Shown here: in pieces, positions 12,019 through 27,730 of the stretch
Numbering within the stretch: position 1 is the first letter of the stretch
Layout of the letters: the number at the start of each line of letters is the position of its first letter
DNA from: Halorubellus sp. JP-L1
GTDB lineage: Archaea > Halobacteriota > Halobacteria > Halobacteriales > Natrialbaceae
Assembly: GCF_011440375.1 (NCBI RefSeq)
Contig: NZ_JAAOIR010000001.1
Span: 1,364,001 to 1,428,000, forward strand
DNA: 64,000 nucleotides
Direction of reading: 5' to 3'
Translations under genes and position numbers: made by a program
The notes under the pieces: generated by a model
What the model was told of the DNA's origin: nothing
Databases searched by the model: none
What the model saw: the letters and a program-made list of their open reading frames with translations, nothing else

Positions 12019-12160
12019 GCGACGATATAGCGCATATGCTATTCTCCCCCGCGGGTGGTAAAAAAGCCGTTTCCGCTGTCGACGGCCACCATCACCAACG
12101 AGCCGGTCCCGACGGATCCGAACCGCGGTCGCTCCGCTCCTCCGTTCGCTGCGCTCCCCC

Positions 12161-12258
12161 GCTTCAAATAGCGCCGTCAATACTTCTACCGACGCAACAC
12201 CGAGGAGCGACAGCAACGAGGCTGCGTCGGTAGAAGTGGGTTAGGGCGGATTTGAACC
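12161..12258. repeat. Palindromic unit A, carrying a copy of the tRNA-Val 3' end
   Basis: A 15-bp perfect inverted repeat (12182-12196 with 12223-12237) encloses a 26-base loop. Outside the arms, GCTTCAAATAGCGCC on the left faces GGGCGGATTTGAACC on the right, so the palindrome extends further with mismatches. The right side, 12233-12259, matches 26 of 27 bases of 12378-12404, which covers the last 23 bases of tRNA-Val and 4 bases beyond it. Confidence 0.85.
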
Positions 12259-12306
12259 GATGTGAGACGTTCCTGCTCGCTCCGCTGCGCGGGCTGCGAC
12301 TCACAG

Positions 12307-12403
12307 GGTTCAAATGCCGCGTCCACAACTTCTCGCAGGACGCACTCCTCGCTGTCGCTCGTCGTGATGTCCTGCGAGAAGTGGGTTGGGGCGGATTTGA
12401 ACC
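12307..12403. repeat. Palindromic unit B, overlapping the tRNA-Val 3' end
   Basis: A 14-bp perfect inverted repeat (12328-12341 with 12369-12382) encloses 27 bases. The left flank GGTTCAAATGCCGC pairs with the tRNA T-arm sequence GCGGATTTGAACC on the right with one bulge. The right half is therefore the functional tRNA-Val 3' end. The organisation is the same as unit A but the arm sequence differs. Confidence 0.85.
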
Positions 12404-12455
12404 GCCGGCCTCCTCCATGTCAAGGAGGTGTCATAACCAACTAGACCACCAACCC
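12382..12455 (-). tRNA. tRNA-Val (anticodon GAC)
   Basis: On the minus strand the 74-base gene folds into a full cloverleaf. The acceptor GGGTTGG pairs with CCAACCC followed by discriminator A. The anticodon stem CCTCC/GGAGG encloses the loop TTGACAT, giving anticodon GAC. The T-arm is GGCGG-TTCAAAT-CCGCC. The CCA end is not encoded and there is no intron. The anticodon reads valine codon GUC, the favoured Val codon in this GC-rich genome. It stands alone, downstream (in its own orientation) of nothing obvious, and is followed by the palindromic units. Confidence 0.95.
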
Positions 12456-27321: not shown

Positions 27322-27730
27322 CTTTCTACCGTCGAACTGCGAGCGATAGCGAGCAGTTCGGCGATACGAAACGTGGCCGGGAGCGGGCGGAGAACCCGTG
27401 TCGGTCGCCGACGAGCGCCAGCGAGTCGGCGAGAAGGAGCGAAGCGAGCGGTAGCGAGTGGAGCGACTGGCGTTCGGAGCCCGCCCGGTAGCGTTCGACA
27501 GTCGAACTGCGAGCGATAGCGAACAGTTCGGCGATACGAAACGTGGCCGGGAGCGGGCGGAGAACCCGTTTACGGTTCCCGCGAGCGACCGCAGGGAGCG
27601 AGGGGGAAGACGATGCGCGAGCGGAGCGAGCGAATCGGAATCGCCGACGAGCGCCAGCGAGTCGGCGAGAGGGAGCGAAGCGAGCGGTAGCGAGTGGAGC
27701 GACTGGCGTTCGGAGCCCGCCAGGTAGCGT
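27301..27730. repeat. Large tandem repeats carrying the tRNA-Met 3' end
   Basis: A ~97-base block starting GTTCGGAGCCCGCC and ending GGAGAACCCG occurs at 27301-27398 (its first 14 bases are the tRNA T-arm) and 27472-27568, and its start recurs at 27708. A second 63-base block (CGACGAGCGCCAGCGAGTCG onward) occurs at 27408-27470 and 27645-27707. The blocks contain palindromes such as CGAACTGCGAGCGATAGCGA. No gene is visible in 27322-27791. Confidence 0.9.

Follow-up and report, generated by a model that had tools for sequence, protein, structure and literature searches.

The window analyzed here is a stretch of 64,000 nucleotides from Halorubellus sp. JP-L1. On its minus strand, the tRNA-Val(GAC) gene is followed on the 3' side by a series of elements in the order D0 - hp1 - D' - hp2 - D1 - hp1 - D' - hp2 - D2(decayed). 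Each unit is laid out as D-hp1-D'-hp2-D; here D exactly repeats tRNA positions 54-73, D' repeats that block in inverted orientation, and hp1 and hp2 are the two hairpins within the unit. Two units, and probably a third, lie behind the gene. The features are as follows.

12382..12455, minus strand: tRNA-Val(GAC) gene (Rfam RF00005, 68.7 bits; ARAGORN 12381-12455)
12382..12401, minus strand: D0, the block copied downstream, tRNA 54-73 from the T-loop start to the discriminator, TTCAAATCCGCCCCAACCCA (identity profile of 168 tRNA/first-copy pairs; sequence)
12328..12382, minus strand: hp1 of unit B, a 14-bp perfect palindrome from the tRNA 3' end on, with the loop ACGAGCGACAGCGAGGAG (DNA fold, z = -4.1)
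12309..12317, minus strand: D' of unit B, an inverted T-loop copy, ATTTGAA (35-nt 74% inverted repeat; tRNA-tracking tests)
12257..12308, minus strand: hp2 of unit B, the conserved core hairpin CCCTGTGAG-T-CG...CG-T-CTCACATCGG (DNA fold, z = -4.2)
12237..12256, minus strand: D1, a direct copy of tRNA 54-73, TTCAAATCCGCCCTAACCCA, 19/20 (repeat comparison; identity profile)
12182..12237, minus strand: hp1 of unit A, a perfect palindrome of 15 bp whose arms are unrelated and whose loop is opposite in orientation to that of unit B (DNA fold, z = -5.7)
12163..12171, minus strand: D' of unit A, an inverted T-loop copy, ATTTGAA (sequence)
12123..12162, minus strand: hp2 of unit A, a second core type, GGGGAGCG...GCGACCGCGG, also found behind other tRNAs (sequence)
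12103..12122, minus strand: D2, tentatively a decayed third copy of the tRNA 3' end (28-nt repeat member at 64%)

A preliminary description of this site had reported perfect inner inverted repeats of 14-15 bp with differing arms and similar loops, and these were found at 12182-12196 / 12223-12237 (15 bp, unit A) and 12328-12341 / 12369-12382 (14 bp, unit B). The hp1 loops of the two units are related (85% over 20 nt) and oppositely oriented, which is consistent with an inversion between the arms. The outer palindrome of unit B (12307-12341 / 12369-12403; 35 nt, 74% complementary) takes in the T-arm and 3' end of the tRNA as one of its sides, as had been described, and the weaker complementarity of D' in this unit extends beyond 12317 to about 12327. 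The copy of the tRNA 3' end and flank in unit A was likewise recovered, as a 28-nt direct repeat (12232-12259 versus 12377-12404) that is identical at 27 of 28 positions with a spacing of 145 bp. Both of the palindromes first described are present, but that picture lacked a third hairpin, hp2 (12257-12308), which is the conserved core, and the decayed copy at 12103-12122 falls outside the stretch it covered. Folding of the minus-strand RNA from 12455 to 12161, a check proposed at that stage, gave z = -6.8 against shuffles, and single-stranded DNA of either strand of the array likewise folds well. No Rfam family besides the tRNA itself scored above the gathering score in the array, and a known RNA family was ruled out on this ground.

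The occurrence of such copies was surveyed across tRNA genes and genomes. Within 260 nt, a downstream copy of the gene's own 3' end was found at 18 of the 43 tRNA genes of this Halorubellus genome, whereas an upstream copy was found at none of the 43; a separate count gave similar figures. Taken with the z value of -6.8, these counts indicate that the tRNA-Val feature is not due to chance. Halorubellus salinus carries a downstream copy at 16 of 45 tRNA genes, so that the share of array-bearing genes is about 40% in each of the two genomes. No copy was detected at the 34 tRNA genes sampled from six genomes of other orders of the same phylum, and four Halobacteriales genomes picked for the absence of the common core had a copy at 2 of 32 tRNAs. 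When 60 relatives were searched at the DNA level, tRNA-Val loci carrying units of a similar kind were recovered from many of them, along with separate core-only matches that sit behind other tRNAs (Ile, Ser, Gly, Arg, Phe, Lys and others); absence from tRNA-Val in close relatives, which would have spoken against the preliminary description, was not observed. In every case read, the copied 3' end was that of the local tRNA. The same layout at many tRNAs in many genomes rules out a random local duplication at tRNA-Val.

The core-hairpin pattern AGTCGC...AGYGAG...CGTCT was present in 260 of 293 Halobacteriales genomes, with the reversed control near zero. Beyond Halobacteriales it occurred at the control level, with single matches in 4 of about 204 genomes. 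A stricter form of the pattern gave 114 stretches in named genomes, and among the matches listed all were haloarchaeal except one metagenome-assembled genome (L183), labelled Bacteroidetes bacterium QS_9_68_14 and belonging to a halite data set; its core is typical, and it is probably a misbinned haloarchaeal contig. Matches to the stricter pattern lay 48-513 nt downstream of a same-strand tRNA in 116 of 120 cases, representing 27 isoacceptors, and the remaining 4 lay at most 270 nt from where the extracted locus begins. Measurement of 266 units at 185 loci of 33 isoacceptors gave a median unit of 128 bp. Compared by sequence, the tRNA-Val site belongs to a family of tRNA-anchored palindrome arrays that spans Halobacteriales. 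Units are lacking behind more than half of the tRNAs, some of them in congeners. Behind tandem near-identical tRNA genes (tRNA-Asp at L176, L205 and L270; tRNA-Gly at L197), units occur after the second gene only.

Phage records contained no match to the core or copy sequences. The sole full-length plasmid match adjoins tRNA-Val(CAC) on an 828-kb Natronorubrum megaplasmid, two other plasmid matches were of 30 nt each, and the single viral-contig match falls inside a terminase-like ORF and looks like a chance match. A viral or plasmid origin was ruled out because phage were unmatched, the viral-contig match is chance-like, and the full-length plasmid match itself lies beside a tRNA.

The extent of the copied block was determined from the identity between D and the tRNA in 168 tRNA/copy pairs. 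Identity was 0.99 from T54, 0.88 at N73 and 0.58 at the next base, against a background of about 0.33. From these steps, the repeated block is tRNA 54-73, and its junctions at 53/54 and 73/74 are very sharp. The copy first described is therefore real, and its extent is corrected to exactly these positions. In 16 of the 26 pairs in which base 52 of the tRNA is not G, the copy has GG where the tRNA has AG before the T-loop; this occurrence of GG in most copies of AG tRNAs indicates that the core brings its own GG. Other left junctions also exist, at which the copy starts from position 61 (Gly, Ala) or about 67 (Pro), as at L339, L340 and L371. A second palindrome type is found at L339 (tRNA-Gly CCC), L340 (tRNA-Gly TCC) and L344 (tRNA-Ala GGC), with a direct copy from near 61, an inverted copy that fully matches the acceptor strand, and an interior hairpin unlike hp2. 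At L371 (tRNA-Pro GGG), only 7 nt of the tRNA 3' end are copied (GGTCCCA / TGGGACC) around a type-c core, as though a different GG had served as the junction.

The inverted copy D', which lies between hp1 and hp2, is also matched to the local tRNA. Located without the use of the tRNA sequence, D' in 86 of 87 units agrees with the A or G that its own tRNA carries at T-loop base 4. In the rest of D', complementarity to the acceptor strand has mostly decayed, yet it is higher with the own than with foreign tRNAs (p = 3e-11), and it is nearly complete in some units, e.g., L266. Where D1 and the tRNA differ, D' sides with the tRNA in 20 of 24 cases. D' accordingly looks like a birth mark of the unit rather than a partner kept matched to D1. 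On the other hand, all 13 differences between D0 and D1 at T-loop base 4 are A to G and preserve a G-U pair in the sense RNA, a bias that gives a weak hint of RNA pairing.

The stems of the hairpins covary. In the core stem NNNAG-T-CG...CG-T-CTNNN, two positions are compensatory, with Watson-Crick pairs in 155 and 152 of 163 cases and three major pair types (C-G, G-C, and A-T or T-A), and across the order the frame of the hp2 core is constant, its T.T mismatch is retained and its stems are compensatory. Wobbles tolerated in the sense and antisense strands numbered 37 versus 39 in hp1 and 143 versus 133 in hp2. The strong stem covariation and the lack of a strand preference of the wobbles favor folded DNA over RNA. 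We infer that the arrays are maintained at the DNA level and that the hairpins fold as single-stranded or cruciform DNA. The loop motif GARCGNAGYGAG was mildly enriched genome-wide (80 versus 52 for the reversed control) and was dropped as a genome-wide element because of this mildness. Three GARCGNAGYGAG loop motifs are clustered at 27437-27684 of the window, distant from any tRNA, and may be hairpin tips of this kind in a different setting. In Halorubrum tRNA-Ser loci (L277, L281, L282 and L283), nested hairpins with a GAAGCGAGC-type tip are found within the hp2 loop.

Turnover of the units was evident when the two Halorubellus species were compared, since the number or type of units differs at most loci. 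The hp2 of tRNA-Val (unit B) has an identity of about 98% with the tRNA-Ile hp2 of this genome and of 94% with one tRNA-Ser(TGA) hp2, but of 63% with the orthologous unit behind tRNA-Val in the sister species. The hp1 arms vary from locus to locus, and the cross-locus identity of hp1 is at most 0.80, nothing like the hp2 values. These identities demonstrate that core hairpins have been exchanged between tRNA genes. The tRNA-Ser(GGA) orthologues of Halorubrum carry arrays of 0, 1 or 2 units, in which three alleles of hp1 and two types of hp2 are freely combined, and hp1 and hp2 are not linked as a cassette. In L286, two units (326 bp) present in L281 are gone, with breakpoints in the hp1 loop repeats; the left half of the remnant matches the first hp1 at 44 of 45 positions, and the flanks match each other at 58 of 60. 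The comparison of these alleles demonstrates array shrinkage via homologous recombination between loop repeats. A dispersed repeat of roughly 310 bp, present in many copies in Halorubrum genomes and unrelated to tRNA genes as far as seen, was observed at about 3830-4140 of L165. The earlier suggestion of an attachment-like duplication or a tRNA-derived mobile palindrome holds in part, in that the arrays occur at many tRNAs in nearly all sampled Halobacteriales, carry exact copies of the host tRNA, and have exchanged their cores.

The anatomy, the junctions, the matching of D and D' tRNA by tRNA, the covarying hairpins, the core exchange and the unit loss are all read from the sequences, and they would point to DNA recombination or strand-switching with the T-loop start as the junction. 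Our tentative reading, held with somewhat less than even confidence, is that these tRNA-anchored zigzag palindrome arrays of Halobacteriales arise by a recombinase-driven insertion or exchange of DNA at the T-loop start. In such a process, the hairpins would fold as single-stranded or cruciform DNA, and a putative recombinase would use the T-loop start as an att-like junction, somewhat as an integron integrase acts on a folded attC site. It would insert or exchange hairpins while the tRNA stays whole and a displaced 3'-end copy remains. The fixed frame of the core with its conserved mismatches favors a recombinase acting on the folded core. Several observations speak against this reading: no recombinase gene or autonomous element was noticed beside the arrays in an unsystematic view of the loci, and no phage matched; hp1 and hp2 are unlinked, unlike an ordinary mobile unit; a double-stranded circle of 128 bp would be unusually small; the left junctions vary (61, about 67); contraction between loop repeats needs no special enzyme; and, weakly, the A-to-G changes at T-loop base 4 keep G-U pairing. 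In addition, we know of no tyrosine recombinase that makes a target-copying D'.

A strong rival is a by-product of replication or repair that needs no dedicated enzyme, because the D-D'-D order would be made in one step. The nascent strand would fold back at the tRNA 3' end and hairpin, copy in reverse, and switch back, and a double switch, or the copying of a closed dumbbell, gives just such an alternation of direct and inverted copies. Template switching would also account for a D' that was originally a longer inverted copy and was not updated as D1 mutated (the 20 of 24 cases above), for the contraction directly seen between L286 and L281, and for the varied left junctions at GG (L371), which resemble microhomology. 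On the other hand, the fixed frame, T.T mismatch and order-wide compensatory stems of hp2 exceed what an unselected by-product should have, the pattern is restricted to tRNA genes and Halobacteriales, and the main junctions are very sharp. We consider this origin rather unlikely, and regard in the same way its account of core swapping, in which short T-loop homology common to all tRNAs and microhomology repair in polyploid cells would suffice.

A functional 3' trailer of the pre-tRNA, whose hairpins end transcription or guide RNase Z and whose D' sequesters the extra 3'-end copies to protect tRNA folding, would fit units that lie on the tRNA strand immediately past the mature 3' end. By predicted RNA energy, the sense strand gives the more stable hp1 in 70 of 87 units, though a wobble excess is absent; all 13 D1 changes at T-loop base 4 retain G-U pairing with D'; and in an in-silico RNA fold the downstream 3'-end copy is able to compete with the cloverleaf. 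However, the sense-strand wobble excess expected in the covarying stems of a functional trailer was seen in neither hp1 nor hp2, hp2 is predicted to be equally stable on both strands (p = 0.32), many tRNAs, some in congeners, lack a unit, and an RNA role leaves the exact 54-73 copies unexplained. A trailer role is conceivable, but the evidence at hand speaks on balance against it, and it is improbable. The pairing of the tRNA 3' half with the downstream arm in competition with the cloverleaf, as proposed in the preliminary description, is likewise not supported, given the missing wobble excess and the acceptor-facing part of D', which is mostly decayed. It is very improbable that ordinary integrative elements (plasmids, proviruses) once used these genes and left the copies behind as attR scars that have since decayed. 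Insertion into tRNA genes, with 3'-end copies left in place, does occur among haloarchaeal elements (PMC3119063, PMC8371274), and the extent of D is that expected of a T-loop type att block, but the copies lie close together (mostly 62-145 nt) at regular distances across 33 isoacceptors, a constant fold and an inverted copy lie between the direct copies, and phage records lack the copies.

The arrays were also compared with known systems. Integron attC sites resemble the arrays in architecture only (a folded imperfect palindrome, a covarying stem, conserved unpaired bases, a variable tip and tandem units), including an outer box, here TTYGAAC...GTTCRAA. Unlike attC, the site is a T-loop within a tRNA gene, and both orientations of the host tRNA are copied in the outer box. 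In the array loci viewed, neither an integron integrase nor cassette genes were noticed, and cassette ORFs are absent between the sites, units of about 128 bp leaving no room for them. The att sites of tRNA-integrating elements (tyrosine recombinases, T-loop sublocation) share the exact copy from T-loop to end and the intact tRNA; here, in contrast, the copies are about 128 bp apart, an inverted copy and a common fold are present at 33 isoacceptors, and no element lies between the direct copies, only hairpins without a phage match. REP/BIME sequences, MITEs and IS200/IS605-derived PATEs are also short non-coding hairpins in tandem mosaics, and hp2 likewise moves between loci. However, the arrays lie behind tRNA genes only, always on the tRNA strand, their arms vary while loop and frame are kept, and their flanks copy the target in alternating orientation. 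Neither the dispersal over many kinds of locus that marks those elements (116 of 120 lie directly behind tRNA genes) nor their conserved termini were found, as the unit ends track each tRNA and hp1 arms differ by locus. Casposons insert at tRNA 3' ends, and target duplication of the CRISPR-like or casposase kind would resemble the direct repeat of the target at every unit; here two conserved hairpins are inserted in place of a spacer or transposon, with a target-matched inverted copy inside.

The literature search, limited to open-access sources, returned tRNA-inserted prophages and a recombinase review, and no such arrays. The review, on archaeal tyrosine recombinases, gives tRNA 3' ends as common sites (PMC8371274), a Haloquadratum paper deals with tRNA-inserted prophages and small mobile repeats (PMC3119063), and in the passages searched in both, arrays of this build are not described. 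The build, with the target copied in both orientations around hairpin cores, seems undescribed, and the novelty would lie in the build rather than in any proven new chemistry. It is conceivable, at slightly lower confidence than the recombinase-driven reading itself, that the arrays represent an undescribed class of haloarchaeal mobile DNA, made of gene-less, tRNA-homed hairpin units that would insert as folded DNA at the T-loop and write direct and inverted tRNA copies. If so, one core family could colonise many tRNA genes harmlessly. Present at about 40% of tRNA genes in the two Halorubellus genomes and at tRNA genes over most of one archaeal order, the arrays are a rare clue to a reaction, by recombination or strand-switching, that copies its target. 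They bear on tRNA 3' ends as integration hot spots, on the origin and survival of palindromes, and on the annotation of tRNA genes, and the question can be tested in standard haloarchaeal laboratory strains.
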